A stretch of 22,564 bases of DNA from a virus. The stretch spans positions 1 through 22,564 of IMG/VR virus record IMGVR_UViG_3300043567_000491, one strand, 5' to 3'. Both the position numbers and the translations under genes were made by a program. Positions 6,591-22,564 of the stretch are shown here, piece after piece. The notes under the pieces are model-generated. The model was not told where the DNA came from. It saw only the letters and a list, made by a program, of their open reading frames with translations, and made no database searches. Position 1 is the first letter of the stretch; the number at the start of each line of letters is the position of its first letter.

Positions 6591-6612
6591 CCGGTGAACA
6601 GGTGAACACCGG
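6591..6612 (+). promoter_or_regulatory. hairpin presenting the ribosome binding site of the glycan cassette
   Basis: CCGGTG (6591-6596) and CACCGG (6607-6612) form a 6-bp stem ending one base before ATG 6614. The ribosome binding site AGGTGA (6600-6605) lies in its 10-base loop. The loop and stem also contain a perfect tandem copy of GGTGAACA (6593-6600 and 6601-6608). A hairpin abutting the start codon could tune translation of the whole coupled cassette; this is inference from geometry only. The rest of 6535-6590 shows no clear promoter. Confidence 0.4.
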
Positions 6613-6613
6613 C

Positions 6614-7675
6614 ATGATCGAACACCTACACCGACTCGCGGCCCACGCTTACTACTGCGGCGAGCACGACGCTGGACGCCGAGCGTGCGAACGGCTCATG
6701 CGGCTTCCGCTCTCCGCGGAGAAAGAGGAGAAGGTCCGGGCCAACCGGACGTGGTATACGCGGACGCTGGCAGACCAAGGCGTCGCCGCGGAGTTCACGA
6801 AGATCGACGTGCCGCCGGCCCGCGTTGGCTGGTCGCTATTCAATCCGTCGGTCGTGAGCCACGGCGACCGGCTACTCGTCAACGTGCGGTCAAGTAACTA
6901 CCGCATCGACGAAAACGGTCGCTACGTCATTCCGCCGGAGGACCGCGAAGCGATCCGGACATACAACTGTCTCGTTGAGCCTGGTGACGGGCACGCACGC
7001 TATTGGGCCGCAGACTACGAAGCCAGCGGGTTCGCGGTGACCGGGCTCGAGGACGTGCGGCTCAACTCCGTGAACGGCGAACTGATCGCGTCCGCCACGA
7101 TTCGCAACTGGGCGGGCCGCGATGGGACTTGCCGTATCGGCGTCGGGAAGCTGGAGAGATTCGACCGGATTCACGACCTGCGCTGCCACGACACCGTGAG
7201 CGGCCGGCACGAAAAAAACTGGATGCCGATCACCGGCCGGAGGGAGTGGCTGTATTCGTGCAGCCACGAAGGCCGGACGTGCATCGTCAAGGAGTACGGC
7301 GACGATTGGACCGTGACGGCACACGCCGAGGCTCCGCTGGTGGCCCGCGGGTTCCGCGGCGGCTCGCAGCTCGTCGAGCACCCATGGGCTCCTGGTCTGT
7401 GGTGGGCGATCGTCCACGAGGTCGCCGTCTCCGGCGGCCGGCGGGTCTATGAGCACCGATTCGTCATGTTCGACGAGGGGGCCGATTGGCGGATCACGCG
7501 GGTATCCCCGCCGTTCGCGTTCCGAGAAACCCGCAGCATCGAGTTCGCCGCCGGCCTCGCGGTCAGCGGCCAGGACACGCTCGTGGCATCTTTCGGCGTG
7601 CGGGACGCCGAGGCGTGGCTGGCATACGTTCCGATCGCGGACGTACTCAACATCATGGTGGACGCATGGGGATGA
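6614..7675 (+). CDS. TPR plus five-bladed beta-propeller (GH130-like) glycan-processing protein
   Basis: 353 residues. The first ~50 look like a tetratricopeptide repeat (LAAHAYYCGEHDAGRRACERL). From about residue 75 the protein shows a GH130-like propeller pattern: SLFNPSVVSHGDRLLVNVR, GLEDVRL, HEKNWMPITG, then RGGSQLVEHPW, VHEV, RVYEHRFVMFD, and the closing strand segments IEFAAGLAV and LVASFGVRDAEAWLA. As I recall, propellers of this kind are found joined to GT2-TPR proteins, where they are thought to act on sugars; here the GT2-TPR part is a separate gene at 8828. ATG 6614 is chosen over GTG 6602 because AGGTGA sits 8 bases upstream. It overlaps the methyltransferase by ATGA. A role in virion or cell-surface glycan synthesis is likely; the exact reaction is unknown. 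Confidence 0.68.
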   Translation: MIEHLHRLAAHAYYCGEHDAGRRACERLMRLPLSAEKEEKVRANRTWYTRTLADQGVAAEFTKIDVPPARVGWSLFNPSVVSHGDRLLVNVRSSNYRIDENGRYVIPPEDREAIRTYNCLVEPGDGHARYWAADYEASGFAVTGLEDVRLNSVNGELIASATIRNWAGRDGTCRIGVGKLERFDRIHDLRCHDTVSGRHEKNWMPITGRREWLYSCSHEGRTCIVKEYGDDWTVTAHAEAPLVARGFRGGSQLVEHPWAPGLWWAIVHEVAVSGGRRVYEHRFVMFDEGADWRITRVSPPFAFRETRSIEFAAGLAVSGQDTLVASFGVRDAEAWLAYVPIADVLNIMVDAWG

Positions 7676-8226
7676 CAGCATCGGTGGCGTGGACCGACTC
7701 CGTCCGCAAACTGCTGGAAAGCAACTGGCGGGAGGACGATTGGTTCGGCTGCGACTCTCGGGTGATTTTCCATTACGCGATGAAGGGCGAGGTTTTTCGC
7801 CGCCACAAGCCGGCCACGGTGATCGAGATCGGCACCCGCTGCGGCTACTCGCTACTGACGTTTGAGGCCGCGGCCCCCGGTGCCCACTACCTGTGCATCG
7901 ACGGGGCAATGGACGCCGACTCCTACGACTGTCTCGCCCACTGGCGGCGGCTCGTTGCGAAGCACCAGATCGACGCCGACCTGGTCGTGGTGGATTCCCA
8001 CGCGATCAAGAGTCTGCCGCCGGCCGATTTCGCTCACGTCGATGGCGACCACTCCTACGCCGGGGCACTGGCCGACCTCCGGCTGGTGGCCGGCAGCCGG
8101 GTGATCCTCGCCGATGACTGCGACAACCGGGAGGTGCGGGCGGCGGTCGAGACGTTCGCCAAGGAGCAGGCCAGGGCCGTGGAGTATTTCGATGACGGGC
8201 TAAGACAAGGGGCGGTGCTGACGTGA
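7672..8226 (+). CDS. class I SAM-dependent methyltransferase (Methyltransf_24-like)
   Basis: 184 residues. The SAM-binding motif I appears as TVIEIGTRCGYS (about residues 49-60), followed by an acidic strand end YLCIDGAMD and the segment FAHVDGDHSYAGALADL (120-136), which is the hallmark of the Methyltransf_24 group. A later LADDCDN fits the usual core strand with acidic residues. The likely substrate is a sugar or small nucleotide-sugar intermediate, judged from its place between the propeller protein and a second methyltransferase. ATG 7672 overlaps the upstream stop; ATG 7666 is a close alternative. The stop overlaps a GTG start of the next gene. The fold is certain by motif; the substrate is inference. 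Confidence 0.85.
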   Translation: MTASVAWTDSVRKLLESNWREDDWFGCDSRVIFHYAMKGEVFRRHKPATVIEIGTRCGYSLLTFEAAAPGAHYLCIDGAMDADSYDCLAHWRRLVAKHQIDADLVVVDSHAIKSLPPADFAHVDGDHSYAGALADLRLVAGSRVILADDCDNREVRAAVETFAKEQARAVEYFDDGLRQGAVLT

Positions 8227-8831
8227 ATATAAAAACTGATGGCCGATCTGATTTGGAATACATAGTGTCCGAGGTCTGGCATTCCAAATGCTACAGATTT
8301 TCGGATCTTTCGCAGATCGTCACTGCAAAGGTTGCGATTGACATCGGTGCGTCTTGCGGTCCGGCAACGATCCAGATTCTCACGACCTGGCCGCAGTCTG
8401 TCGTCTACTCGTATGAGCCAGACCCCGTAAGGTTCTCCCTGCTGAAAGAGAACACCGCAGAGTTTTCGGACCGCGTCCGGCTTTCCATGACTGCCGTGTG
8501 TGGATCGAACAGGGATCATGTTGGCAGCGATGGCGTGCATAGAAAAAACGCTGGAGCAGTGTGGGAATACATGGCTGCGTTCGGGTCAACCGAGTCGTCG
8601 GCCGAATCGCTTCCGGCTGCCGATCTCATGAAGATCGACTGCGAAGGGTTTGAGTGGGGAATCATTGAGGATTTGGCGTTACTTGGCAGGCTGCCGACAG
8701 TGATCGTAGGGGAGTGGCATTTTCAAGATTGCAAAGACGCAATCACTGAAATCTTGTCGAGAACACACTCCGCGACGTTTTCCCCGACTGGCTATCCGTG
8801 GGGCCAGTTCCTTGCGGTGAAGAAAACATGA
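8223..8831 (+). CDS. FkbM-family methyltransferase
   Basis: 202 residues. Motif I is KVAIDIGASCGPATI (36-50), followed by the FkbM landmarks VYSYEPDPVRFSLLKEN (61-77) and LMKIDCEGFEWGII (135-148). FkbM enzymes O-methylate hydroxyls, commonly on sugars. The start is GTG in a GTGA overlap, and the stop overlaps the glycosyltransferase start as ATGA, so it is firmly inside the cassette. Base composition changes sharply here: 8221-8280 has only 26 G/C in 60 bases, and A/T-ending codons (AAT ATA AAA) are common, unlike both neighbours. This suggests that this single gene was swapped in from a less GC-rich source while keeping the overlapping junctions. Confidence 0.87.
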   Translation: MNIKTDGRSDLEYIVSEVWHSKCYRFSDLSQIVTAKVAIDIGASCGPATIQILTTWPQSVVYSYEPDPVRFSLLKENTAEFSDRVRLSMTAVCGSNRDHVGSDGVHRKNAGAVWEYMAAFGSTESSAESLPAADLMKIDCEGFEWGIIEDLALLGRLPTVIVGEWHFQDCKDAITEILSRTHSATFSPTGYPWGQFLAVKKT

Positions 8832-9880
8832 AAGTCGCCATCTACGCCCTCGCCCGCAACGAAGCCGACAACGTCGAGCGGTGGGAATCGTCGTGCCGGG
8901 AGGCCGACGTTCGCGTGGTCACCGACACCGGCTCGACCGACAACACCGTGGAGCTGCTCGAGGCCGCGGGCGTGACGGTGGCCCGCGGGGCTCCGATCCC
9001 TTGGCGGTGGGACGACGCCCACAACCTTTCGCTGATGCACGCCCCGGCCGACGCCGACGTGGTGATCCGGCTCGACCTCGACGAAGCCCTCGACCCCGGC
9101 TGGCGAGAAGCCATAGAGCGTGATTGGACGCCGGAGACCACCAAACTCCGCTACTGGTACTGGTGGTCGCACGAGGTGCGGTTTCGGTGCGACCGGATTC
9201 ACGCCCGCACGGGCTACCGGTGGACCGGGGCGACGCACGAGGGGCTGGTGCGGTGGGACGGCGAGGAAGTGCAGACGGTGTCCGACGGCGTAGTGATCCG
9301 CCATCACCGGCAACCCGGCAAGGTCCACAAAACCGACCTGACGCTGCTGCGGCAAGCCGTCCGCGAGAATCCGACCGACGCCCGGATGCAGTGGTATCTC
9401 GCCCGCGAAATGGACTACGCGGACGATCCGGCGTGCGTCGAGGAGTTTCAGAAATACCTTGCCATGCCGGGCGGGGCTCCGAACGAGCGGGCGTATGCCC
9501 GCCGGGTGCTTGCCAGACGGGACGAGCGTGGGCGTGCCCGCCACATGCTCGGGTCGATGCTAGAGAGCCCGCTGGAGCCAGAGGCATACGCCCACGTCGC
9601 TGAGTTGGCCTGGTCGAAAGGCGACGCGGTGGGGGCACTCTACTGGGCACGGCAAGCCCTCAACTGCTCCGACGAGAACCGGTCGCACGCTAGCGATCCG
9701 GCTGCCTACGGAGAGTTTCCAGCCGACGTGGCGTATTCAGCCGCGTACAAGCTGGGGCTCATGGGTGAGGCTATTAGCCATGCCAAGGAAGCCGCACGAC
9801 GGAATCCTGGCAATCAGCGGCACGCGGACAACGTGCTGGCGATTGGGAGAATGGAAGTAGAGGAAGGCCCAAAACCATGA
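8828..9880 (+). CDS. family 2 glycosyltransferase with C-terminal TPRs
   Basis: 350 residues. The GT-A nucleotide-sugar domain is evident: the opening strand MKVAIYALARNEADNVERW, DTGSTDNTVELLEA (33-46), and the metal-binding DxD-type motif in RLDLDEAL (81-88). An aromatic segment YRWTGATHEGLVR follows, the position of the acceptor loop in this family. From about residue 175 the protein turns to TPR-like helices, ending with the YKLGLMGEAISHAKEAARR repeat. It transfers a sugar from an activated donor, most likely to a glycan destined for the virion, because the gene is coupled to structural genes on its 3' side (ATGA with 9877). Other possible roles are modification of host surface polysaccharide. 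The fold is confident; donor and acceptor are unknown. Confidence 0.88.
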   Translation: MKVAIYALARNEADNVERWESSCREADVRVVTDTGSTDNTVELLEAAGVTVARGAPIPWRWDDAHNLSLMHAPADADVVIRLDLDEALDPGWREAIERDWTPETTKLRYWYWWSHEVRFRCDRIHARTGYRWTGATHEGLVRWDGEEVQTVSDGVVIRHHRQPGKVHKTDLTLLRQAVRENPTDARMQWYLAREMDYADDPACVEEFQKYLAMPGGAPNERAYARRVLARRDERGRARHMLGSMLESPLEPEAYAHVAELAWSKGDAVGALYWARQALNCSDENRSHASDPAAYGEFPADVAYSAAYKLGLMGEAISHAKEAARRNPGNQRHADNVLAIGRMEVEEGPKP

Positions 9881-19465: not shown

Positions 19466-19699
19466 ATGACCGACTCGTTGTTTCGATCGACCGCCAGGGG
19501 CCGCGAGCCGCTGGCGTCGGCCAGCGATGCCGGCGAGCACGTCCACTACGAGCCGTCGCGTCGTGTTGGGATCGGGTCGATCACCAGCCGGCAGCCATCG
19601 GGCCGCACGCCACTGACGTTTTTTGAGTTCCTTGCCATACGGGCTGGGCTGACGCTCGCCGAAGCCAAACGACTTCACGCGGAAGGGAAGATCCACTGA
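19466..19699 (+). CDS. hypothetical small protein
   Basis: A 77-residue protein that I do not recognise. The first 50 residues are polar and probably disordered (STARGREPLASASDAGEHVH), while the C-terminal 25 (PLTFFEFLAIRAGLTLAEAK) look like a helical segment that could bind a partner. It follows the second promoter-like motif and starts the block containing the two tandem paralogs, to which it is coupled by a TGATG overlap. Confidence 0.55.
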   Translation: MTDSLFRSTARGREPLASASDAGEHVHYEPSRRVGIGSITSRQPSGRTPLTFFEFLAIRAGLTLAEAKRLHAEGKIH

Positions 19700-20193
19700 T
19701 GGCAAACACCCTCTCGGTTTCTGGAAACACTCGGCTGGCGTGGACTCTGTCCGAGAGCCAGAGCATTGGGTCGGTGTCGAGGTCGGTGGAGCAGCGGTCG
19801 TCTCGGTCGATCGCCAATGGCACCGGGCCGAGCCAAGCCAGCATTGCTTTCTCAACGACCGAGAGCGTGACCGGGACGAACACCCGAAATCTTAACGTTG
19901 CCGCCTATGCCGCAAATGCGTTTGGGTTTCCGGGGCAAGCATTTTTCTCGACCGTTCGCGAAGTGCTGGTGAGCGTCACTACCGGGCCGACCGGCGGAAA
20001 TCTCACGGTTGGGCTTCCCACTGGCGTCACTGGCGTGCGTCTCAATGTTGGCGGCCAGTTTCATTGGATTGACTACCTCGGCGGAATACCGTCGTCGGCG
20101 AGCCCTGCCAATGTCTCACTCAAGAGCAACGTGACGGGCGTTTACTCGGTTGACGTGACTGTGATCGGCACTGGCGACTTCGGGAGTATCTGA
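19699..20193 (+). CDS. tandem paralog 1, beta-rich putative virion protein
   Basis: 164 residues, rich in Gly, Ser, Thr and Val with no long hydrophobic segment. It begins MANTLSVSGNTRLAWTLSES and has the blocks SSRSIANGTGP, REVLVSVTTGPTGG, LPTGVTGV and VGGQFHWIDYLGGI, all of which recur in the next protein. The pattern of short strands and glycine turns suggests a small beta-sandwich surface or decoration protein. Starts TGATG and ends TGATG. The family is unknown to me; a structural role is inferred from composition and location. Confidence 0.65.
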   Translation: MANTLSVSGNTRLAWTLSESQSIGSVSRSVEQRSSRSIANGTGPSQASIAFSTTESVTGTNTRNLNVAAYAANAFGFPGQAFFSTVREVLVSVTTGPTGGNLTVGLPTGVTGVRLNVGGQFHWIDYLGGIPSSASPANVSLKSNVTGVYSVDVTVIGTGDFGSI

Positions 20194-20666
20194 TGCCAAA
20201 CACTCTTTCTGTGGCTGGTGCGACTCGTGTTGCGTGGTCTCTCGCAGACTCCGATGGGGCGTCAAAGAGCGACACGCAATCGTCGAGCCGGTCGATCACC
20301 ACCGGCACCGGGCCAAACCAGGCCAACGTCGCGTGGTCGTATCCGTTTTCGACCACCGGCATCGGTTCGGCGTCGTGGTCAGTGTCCGCCCTGCCGGTTT
20401 CTGCATTCGGGCCAACGGGCTCCGCGAGCGTGACCGCCATAAAGGAAGTGCTGGTCACCGTGTCCACCGGCCCGACCGGTGGCTATGTGGCGTTCAGCCT
20501 TCCGACGGGCGTGATCGGTGCCCAAGTGGCCGTCGGCGGGCAGTTCCACCTCGCCGACTATCTGACCGGGATTGGCGTCACCACTGGGAACATCGTGATC
20601 GCCAACGGCCCGACGGGTTCGTATGCCGGTGAGATCACGATCGTCGGCAACGGGTCATACCAGTGA
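20193..20666 (+). CDS. tandem paralog 2, beta-rich putative virion protein
   Basis: 157 residues, a clear duplicate of the preceding gene: shared NTLSV-G-TR-AW-L, SSRSI--GTGP-QA, then AFG--G, KEVLVTVSTGPTGG, LPTGVIG and VGGQFHLADYLTGI. The copies differ most near residues 20-35 and at the C-terminus. Retention of two diverged copies side by side suggests two subunits of one assembly or two binding specificities. It is coupled to the next gene by GTGA. Confidence 0.65.
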   Translation: MPNTLSVAGATRVAWSLADSDGASKSDTQSSSRSITTGTGPNQANVAWSYPFSTTGIGSASWSVSALPVSAFGPTGSASVTAIKEVLVTVSTGPTGGYVAFSLPTGVIGAQVAVGGQFHLADYLTGIGVTTGNIVIANGPTGSYAGEITIVGNGSYQ

Positions 20667-21037
20667 TCGCAGAAGCACCGGCCGCGGCTGCGGCCAACAC
20701 CCCCGGCGGCGTTCTCGTGAAACTCCATGCGTTCGTCGAGTCGGCCAAGTCTGCCGCTGCCGATGGGCTGACGTGGGCCGAGTTCGGTGAACTGCTGGTC
20801 GCGTTCCTCCGGATGGCCGTCTCGCTCTATGACGACGTGGTCGGCATGACGGGCGAGGAGAAGAAGGCCGCGGTGCTCGACGGCGTGGCCGCCCTCTTCG
20901 ACGCGGTGGCCGACCGATGCGTGCCCCTGGTGCTCTGGCCGCTATGGGGGCTGGTTCGCGGTCCCGTCCGGCTCCTGGTTCTCGCCCTCGCGTCCGGGGC
21001 GATCGAGCAACTCCTACCACTCGTGAGGCTCGCATGA
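20663..21037 (+). CDS. small protein with hydrophobic C-terminal half
   Basis: A 124-residue protein with an Ala-rich N-terminus, a helical centre (AVSLYDDVVGMTGEEKKAAV) and a hydrophobic C-terminus (CVPLVLWPLWGLVRGPVRLL, then VLALASGAIEQLLPLV) that could cross or lie on a membrane. It starts with GTG overlapping the upstream stop and overlaps the next start as ATGA. Placed before a double-TM protein and a membrane-anchored protease, it may take part in lysis (holin-like), but no diagnostic feature is seen. Confidence 0.5.
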   Translation: MIAEAPAAAAANTPGGVLVKLHAFVESAKSAAADGLTWAEFGELLVAFLRMAVSLYDDVVGMTGEEKKAAVLDGVAALFDAVADRCVPLVLWPLWGLVRGPVRLLVLALASGAIEQLLPLVRLA

Positions 21038-21588
21038 TTCCTACGCTTCTCATAATCGCAGCGGTGGCAGCCTGGGGCTGGCCTCACCTCCAGCCGTTGG
21101 CCGAGAAGGCCAAGGCCGCCGCCGCCAAACTCACGCCCCGCCACTACGCCGGCATCGCGCTGGTGGCCGCGGCCGTCGCGTATGGTCTCGGGCCGTCGGA
21201 GTCTCCCGCCCCCGGCCCGACCCCCGCCCCCGACGCCGGCCCGCTGTCGTTGGCCGGATTGTTCGCCGGCCCCACGGCTTCGGAGGACGCATCCCTGGTG
21301 GGGGCTATGTGTGCAGAGATCGCCGACGAGGTCGAGTTCTCTGCCGGCCACCCAGACGGCTACCTCTCCACCGGCATCGCAGTTGATGAGCTGCGGAAGA
21401 GAACCCGCATTCTCCGCTGCCGGGGTATTTCGATTGGCGACCGGCAGCCGGCCGCAAGGGACGCGATCGCCAAGTACCTCGAGGACGCCGTGGGCACCGA
21501 CGGCGGGCCGCTGACCGCCGAGCAGCGGACGGCGTGGGTTGCCGCGTATCGCGATTTGGGGAGGGCTGCCACCAATGCGGCGAAGTGA
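21034..21588 (+). CDS. membrane protein with two N-terminal TM segments
   Basis: 184 residues. Two hydrophobic segments (about residues 3-16 and 39-52) flank a short Ala/Lys-rich link; a Pro-rich stretch (54-70) then leads to a soluble domain of ~110 residues with two Cys and a DGYLSTGIAVDELRKRTR helix. The layout of two membrane helices, a proline spacer and a soluble domain could fit a holin- or spanin-like accessory, but that is inference. It is coupled to 20663 by ATGA and overlaps the papain-like gene by 14 bases. Confidence 0.6.
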   Translation: MIPTLLIIAAVAAWGWPHLQPLAEKAKAAAAKLTPRHYAGIALVAAAVAYGLGPSESPAPGPTPAPDAGPLSLAGLFAGPTASEDASLVGAMCAEIADEVEFSAGHPDGYLSTGIAVDELRKRTRILRCRGISIGDRQPAARDAIAKYLEDAVGTDGGPLTAEQRTAWVAAYRDLGRAATNAAK

Positions 21589-22564
21589 TTGGTCGTGGTC
21601 TGCGATCGCGTTCGTGGTATTCGCGGCGGTGCTGGGGACGATCGTCTCGCGATACGTCTCGCGGCTGGCTGACCGCGTCGAGACAAACTTCGGTTACGTC
21701 CCCGACGCCGAGGGCACCCGCGAGTTTCTCCGCGAGCTGGACCAGCCGCTATTCCGCCAGGCCGGGGCCGAGGTCATCGCCGGGGCGAAGGGGCACGATG
21801 CCTACCTTTACCGGTTCGCCGACCGGTGCCACCGGCAGAAGTATGGCAAGCCGTTCGGGCCGTGGAACCAGGGCAGTGCCGGGACGTGCGTGTCGTTCGG
21901 CTGGGCTATGGGTTCGTACATCGGCCAGTGTGTCGATCACGTCGCTGGCGGGCTGGCTGAGTGCCCACTGATCGTTGCGACCGAGCCAATCTACGGCGGG
22001 TCGAGGACGGCCGGCAGAATGCCGCCGGTCACAAACGCCGGCTTCTCCGACGGCTCCTACGGCGGTGCTGCGGCCCGATGGGTGTCGGGGCGGTGCAAGG
22101 ACCAGACTGTCGGCGGGATCCTTTATCGCCAGGTCTACGGCGACATCGACCTCACGACCTACTCAATCGACCGCTCTCGGCAGTGGGGTGCATACGGAGT
22201 GCCACCCTCGCTCGCGAAGCTGGCCCGCGAGCACACCGCGAGGGCCGTGGCTCTCTGTGAGGATTGGGCGTCGCTGACGGCGGCGCTCGAGTCGGGCATG
22301 TGCGTGCCAATCTGTTCCAACGTCGGCTTCGCGACCGGCGATCGTGACGCTGACGGATTCTGCCGGAGGTCGGCACAACCCTGGAACCATTGCATGGTGG
22401 CGTGCTCTTTGAAGTACGCGAAGAACAACGGGCCAGGTTCCGCAACCCCGATGAAGAATCCACGCGACGGGATCCTCATCTTGAATAGCTGGGGCTCGTA
22501 TGTCGGCGGCGGCAAGCACCCCGCCGACCAGCCGGATGGCTCATTCTGGATCACGCGGGCCGAC
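21575..22564 (+). CDS. membrane-anchored papain-like (C1A) cysteine protease, 3' end beyond window
   Basis: An open frame of 330 codons without stop to the right edge, starting at ATG 21575. Residues ~6-25 (WSWSAIAFVVFAAVLGTIVS) form a membrane anchor or signal. The papain hallmarks follow: NQGSAGTCVSFGWA, with the oxyanion Gln Q99 exactly six residues before the Cys C105 as in papain; NHCMV, with His H272; and ILNSWG, with Asn N304. One of the usual disulfide cysteines in QGSCGSC is replaced by Ala (A102), while nine other Cys are spread through the domain. It would be a thiol protease acting outside or at the membrane. It overlaps the upstream membrane protein gene by 14 bases. The role could be lysis, processing of virion or host surface protein, or protection; the fold call is strong, the role unknown. 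Confidence 0.86.
   Translation, partial: MRRSDWSWSAIAFVVFAAVLGTIVSRYVSRLADRVETNFGYVPDAEGTREFLRELDQPLFRQAGAEVIAGAKGHDAYLYRFADRCHRQKYGKPFGPWNQGSAGTCVSFGWAMGSYIGQCVDHVAGGLAECPLIVATEPIYGGSRTAGRMPPVTNAGFSDGSYGGAAARWVSGRCKDQTVGGILYRQVYGDIDLTTYSIDRSRQWGAYGVPPSLAKLAREHTARAVALCEDWASLTAALESGMCVPICSNVGFATGDRDADGFCRRSAQPWNHCMVACSLKYAKNNGPGSATPMKNPRDGILILNSWGSYVGGGKHPADQPDGSFWITRAD

Follow-up and report, generated by a model that had tools for sequence, protein, structure and literature searches.

How tailed phages escape from hosts with protein-rich, peptidoglycan-poor walls appears to be unanswered in the literature searched. A locus that raises this question lies at the end of an incomplete viral contig of 22.6 kb (the window, by which we mean the whole stretch of 22,564 nucleotides analysed). 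The final three genes of the window, designated F2, F3 and F1, had been read in the initial annotation as a possible lysis module in overlapping frames, composed of a protein with a hydrophobic tail, a double-TM protein and a papain-like protease with an N-terminal TM segment. This layout was confirmed: a GTGA forms the overlap at the start of F2 (20663-20666), F2 and F3 share an ATGA (21034-21037), and F3 and F1 overlap by 14 nt. The hydrophobic tail of F2 corresponds to residues 102-120, and F3 begins with two helices (residues 2-29 and 34-51) in an AlphaFold model with a pLDDT of 88. The start codon of F1 is the ATG at 21575, the TTG at 21539 given by the ORF finder being an in-frame codon further upstream. 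Completing the gene beyond 22564 through a 100% identical contig yielded a protein of 383 aa; the genes past this position are known only through the near-identical relatives L002 and L003. The features of the locus are the following.

20663..21037, plus strand: F2, 124-aa protein with a conserved motif and a hydrophobic C-terminal segment
21034..21588, plus strand: F3, 184-aa protein with an N-terminal TM hairpin, a Pro-rich linker and a C-terminal helical bundle
21575..22564, plus strand: F1, C1A-like papain-fold cysteine protease (predicted) with an N-terminal membrane anchor; 330 of 383 aa in the window
21602..21658, plus strand: predicted TM anchor of F1, residues 10-28, from hydrophobicity
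21869..21871, plus strand: Gln99 codon of F1 (oxyanion-hole glutamine), invariant in alignments A1 and A9
21887..21889, plus strand: catalytic Cys105 codon of F1, invariant in alignments A1 and A9
22388..22390, plus strand: catalytic His272 codon of F1, invariant in alignments A1 and A9
22484..22486, plus strand: Asn304 codon of F1 (NSWG motif), invariant in A1, Gln in three distant relatives in A9

Two adjoining paralogs of a further family, F7, lie just before the cassette (19699-20666), the first having phrog_22694, of unknown function, as its sole match. Inside the structural module, four genes (6602-9880) read as glycan-related: one glycosidase/phosphorylase-like, two methyltransferases and a GT2-like glycosyltransferase.

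Searches with the F1 sequence gave no Pfam match at E<=1, no match to PDB sequences and a single, insignificant match among the PHROGs. The Pfam Peptidase_C1 model matched none of 28 family members. The top PDB structure matches of an AlphaFold2 model of F1 (pLDDT 83, pTM 0.80) were C1A peptidases, namely xylellain, cathepsins and Cwp84. The best was xylellain (3ois; Z 21.9, 242 residues aligned, rmsd 3.2, 19% identity), and Cwp84 scored Z 17.9. Matches among viral structures included proteins named Peptidase_C1, and those in BFVD included phage proteins named N acetylmuramidase and peptidoglycan binding-like. F1 thus resembles the C1A enzymes (papain, cathepsins, xylellain, Cwp84) in its fold, in the order and spacing of Gln-Cys...His...Asn and in the NSWG motif. 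Judging from the model, F1 is a papain-fold cysteine protease with predicted activity; we term it C1A-like because Peptidase_C1 is unmatched and the assignment comes from structure and motif. No cell-wall-binding domain was identified in the protein.

The papain residues proposed at the outset (Q99, C105, H272 and N304) are correctly numbered for the ATG at 21575 and are invariant across 28 diverse relatives (alignment A1). Q, C and H are again invariant among 21 divergent members, whose identity falls as low as 28%, and the catalytic Asn is replaced by Gln in three of these (alignment A9). The TM segment, equally part of the original description, spans residues 10-28 (KD 2.05) and is kept in 26 of 27 diverse relatives; in some lineages the protein is soluble. 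Net charge is higher before the segment than after it in 18 of the 27, a pattern that weakly favours an N-in/C-out orientation with the protease facing the periplasm. As had been suggested, phage-encoded homologs were collected with their neighbours: IMG/VR contains 551 relatives of F1, which recur in a gene cassette, and none was found among 50,697 phage records or 72,556 plasmids. The number of relatives, the invariance of the catalytic residues and the C1A fold together indicate that the observation is not due to chance. F1 differs from known C1A enzymes in a sequence beyond the reach of Pfam and PDB searches, in the TM anchor, in belonging to a phage cassette and in the Gln that stands for Asn in distant members. 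Soluble homologs of about 35% identity are also present in Mucilaginibacter genomes, at positions without obvious phage context (L083:9953-10915 and L084:9857-10783).

Neighbouring genes were counted around 81 distinct F1 genes in IMG/VR, taking only loci with enough flanking room. In 75 of 75 loci the gene directly upstream of F1 is F3, which mostly overlaps it; F2 lies upstream in 67 of 75. On the other side, F52 follows in 68 of 69 loci, and F4 is found near F1 in 39 of 69. F2 is characterised by the motif GxEKK...FD..ADkcVP...P.W..RP..R..VL..A.GAIE (alignment A2) and, by reading of the sequence, is present in Planctomycetota prophages too. Pfam gives no holin match for it, and PHROG no match at all for its relative L130:1152-1520; we regard F2 as a holin candidate. 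F3, whose conservation was derived from alignments A3 and A8, gave no informative fold match in a structure search, and its C-terminal helical bundle is expected to lie in the periplasm. In F52, a small protein, a hydrophobic segment at the N-terminus is joined in most members by an HAxGW-like motif at the C-terminus. F4 has three hydrophobic segments and a weak relationship to Transgly_assoc: nine of nine members match PF04226 (Transgly_assoc / GlsB; best E 4.9e-5), one of them with 22.8 bits, under the gathering cut-off of 25.3. No cassette protein matched a known holin or spanin family in Pfam or PHROG. F1 and the small membrane proteins around it form a group among the late genes.

No standard holin-endolysin cassette lies just downstream of F1; a small TM protein and the Transgly_assoc-like protein are found there instead. 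The initial annotation had seen no endolysin in the window, and this holds in longer genomes. G007 (42.7 kb) and G009 (45.4 kb) were taken as complete (circular) because each has 127-bp identical ends. Their Pfam matches comprise portal, terminase, tape measure, integrase and replication genes, with no lysozyme, amidase, transglycosylase, CHAP, NlpC/P60, M15 or M23 among the matches listed, and no described endolysin family is among those listed for G005 (42.3 kb), whose F1 is 93% identical to that of the window; the lists for G007, G009 and G005 cover described families only and, for some, the best 25 of 31, 26 and 53 families. A PHROG scan of G009 likewise gave no endolysin among the matches listed. 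G007 encodes, a few genes before the cassette, a 92-aa protein with a HELIH motif (L129:17524-17799), probably the SprT-like Pfam match of that genome.

Another IMG/VR contig, G003 (77375 bp), was dropped as a single complete genome because it seems to consist of two phage genomes that meet at a 126-bp repeat. The first of these (positions 1-36792; 36.7 kb, closed by the 126-bp repeat) is from a related phage and carries no F1 and no endolysin by Pfam. Directly after a TM protein, it encodes a protein (L119:1882-2793) with papain-like motifs, TNQ..HECTCH...GHAV, and about 30 relatives in IMG/VR. Since a profile comparison of this protein with F1 was not significant, the idea that a second papain-like protease has replaced F1 is no more than a lead.

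That the hosts are Planctomycetes, as originally suggested, is supported by a close F1 relative accompanied by F3 and F4 in a Planctomycetota MAG contig, by a distant relative in a Gemmatales MAG and by homologs in 10 of 392 genomes sampled from the phylum. In three of these 10 genomes, the prophage loci L148-L150 have the order F2-like, F3, protease, F52-like (not called in L149), thioredoxin-like and then terminase-like genes, the terminases being identified by reading of the sequence rather than by HMM matches. The thioredoxin-like protein in these three loci scores above the cut-off of PF13899 and has an N-terminal hydrophobic or signal-like stretch; L151 combines a lipoprotein-like F3 and a soluble protease with a thioredoxin above the PF00085 cut-off. 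In these four loci, thioredoxin-like proteins that are apparently exported or lipoprotein-like thus adjoin the protease, their genes being located as follows.

L148:13610-14182, L149:10661-11185, L150:8715-9275 and L151:7692-8777: thioredoxin-like genes

None was seen beside F1 in the window's own lineage. The planctomycete sacculus is described as consisting of disulfide-bonded protein (PMC2754498), and the YTV proteins are cysteine-rich and present in cell-wall preparations (PMC8567305, PMC10632474). YTV wall proteins are found in all 10 homolog-bearing genomes, compared with 42 of 392 overall (hypergeometric 7e-11, ignoring shared ancestry), a count confounded by host phylogeny, since YTV marks a clade and clade-restricted phages would give the same result. 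Peptidoglycan has also been detected in Planctomycetes (PMC10632474). Of 11 hosts, 8 had a murE gene above cut-off and 3 had murG; in 6 of the 11, some of which may have incomplete assemblies, murG gave no match or a weak partial one. The notion of hosts devoid of peptidoglycan was therefore not generally upheld. The protein-rich envelope invoked in the initial annotation is favoured by the YTV genes.

From the genomes we infer a function for F1 in lysis, together with its topology, the roles of the small proteins and the substrate. The reading that we prefer is a role in lysis, which we judge fairly probable. At the centre of the lysis cassette of temperate Planctomycetota siphophages, F1 would be the enzyme that occupies the place of a classical endolysin, as suggested by its anchored and soluble forms, the small membrane proteins, the late-gene position and the lack of a recognisable alternative. 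The N-terminal anchor would hold the protein in the inner membrane with the catalytic domain towards the periplasm; the soluble form of some lineages would need a holin. F2, F3, F52 and F4 may permeabilise the inner membrane or release F1, which would then hydrolyse a load-bearing part of the envelope. The most likely substrate would be the cysteine-rich protein wall of the hosts (YTV proteins), favoured on the grounds of protein-cleaving relatives, thioredoxin partners and YTV-bearing hosts; where an exported thioredoxin adjoins the protease, disulfide reduction may assist. It is plausible that F1 opens a protein wall, which would be new. The full scheme, in which an anchored thiol protease, joined in some lineages by an exported thioredoxin, breaks a disulfide-crosslinked, cysteine-rich wall and so brings about lysis, is put forward tentatively. 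F1 alone might not free the virions, since several hosts encode murE and murG.

These same hosts give some weight to an alternative in which F1 is still a lysis enzyme and cuts the stem peptides or cross-bridges of peptidoglycan, as an unusual papain-fold endolysin peptidase. Papain-fold domains (N5, C39-like) have been proposed in mycobacteriophage LysA (PMC3314691), and the names of the BFVD matches (N acetylmuramidase, peptidoglycan binding-like), the murE and murG scores over or near the cut-offs in several hosts and the peptidoglycan detected in the phylum (PMC10632474) point the same way. However, the closest folds belong to protein-cleaving C1A enzymes (xylellain, cathepsins, Cwp84), F1 has no identified cell-wall-binding domain, and murG is absent or weak and partial in 6 of 11 hosts, some perhaps with incomplete assemblies. 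We consider this alternative unlikely, though the peptidoglycan genes of several hosts keep peptidoglycan a candidate target beside wall protein.

The F2-F3-F1-F52 set travels together while its genomic position varies. In the lineage of the window, the cassette comes after the tail genes; it precedes genes read as TerS/TerL in L070 and, in L046, sits inside the head cluster, with a gene read as prohead protease on one side and one read as major capsid protein on the other (names given in both loci from the sequence, not from HMM matches); it is found with differing head modules. F1 thus adjoins terminase, tail or head genes, not integrase or repressor genes. This late-region position, and the retention of F1 in phages with no other recognisable lysis enzyme, make it rather improbable that the protein serves a non-lytic purpose such as superinfection exclusion, removal of surface receptors or processing of host defence or secreted proteins, even if an anchored protease with partner membrane proteins, the homologs kept in prophages and the soluble homolog outside phage context in Mucilaginibacter would suit such a function. 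Least credible is a virion protein or a maturation/ejection protease, to which the head-cluster and tail-gene placements could point: F1 has a TM anchor, G009 encodes a separately recognised head maturation protease, and the cassette, found with differing head modules, shifts between unrelated positions relative to the structural genes in a way not expected of a constant virion component.

Among known systems, the lysis role that we favour recalls the SAR (signal-anchor) endolysins such as R21 and P1 Lyz, which have a weak N-terminal TM anchor that can leave the membrane and are glycosidases acting on peptidoglycan; phage endolysins occur in SAR and soluble forms. F1 resembles them in its anchor, its small membrane partners and its location at the endolysin's usual place, and differs in being a papain-fold protease, for which release from the membrane is hypothetical. 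PeiW and PeiP of methanogen viruses, unlike F1, are not membrane anchored, and they differ from it in family and substrate. They are lytic pseudomurein endoisopeptidases matched to a special wall (PMC12596118, PMC4456609), and F1 is likewise a candidate viral lytic peptidase suited to a special host wall. With mycobacteriophage LysA, F1 shares a papain-fold cysteine peptidase proposed within a phage lysis enzyme (PMC3314691); LysA is modular and directed at peptidoglycan, whereas F1 is a single anchored protease with no wall-binding domain identified. Clostridium difficile Cwp84 has the C1A fold and is tied to a surface protein layer but, unlike the role proposed for F1, is a bacterial S-layer protease and not a lysis enzyme.

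Literature searches found no phage lysis by a papain-like protease, and no description of an anchored C1A-like protease that has its own cassette and is the sole recognisable lytic enzyme. Already known are the papain-fold domains proposed inside phage endolysins (PMC3314691) and the special-wall lytic peptidases of methanogen viruses. A 2015 review of archaeal virus egress proposed that holins might act together with proteolytic enzymes against the S-layer and noted that no such S-layer-degrading enzyme was known then (PMC4456609); the main text of a census of the lytic proteins of prokaryotic viruses, published in 2025, mentions neither papain, cysteine proteases nor planctomycetes (PMC12596118). 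The F1 cassette, with homologs numbering in the hundreds and copies in prophages of Planctomycetota, is a concrete candidate that makes the question of escape testable, and it could yield a tool for breaking planctomycete cells. The conserved cassette and the lack of a recognisable wall-cutting enzyme suggest that phages may burst protein-walled hosts by proteolysis. If true, this would be a lysis principle directed at protein, not peptidoglycan.
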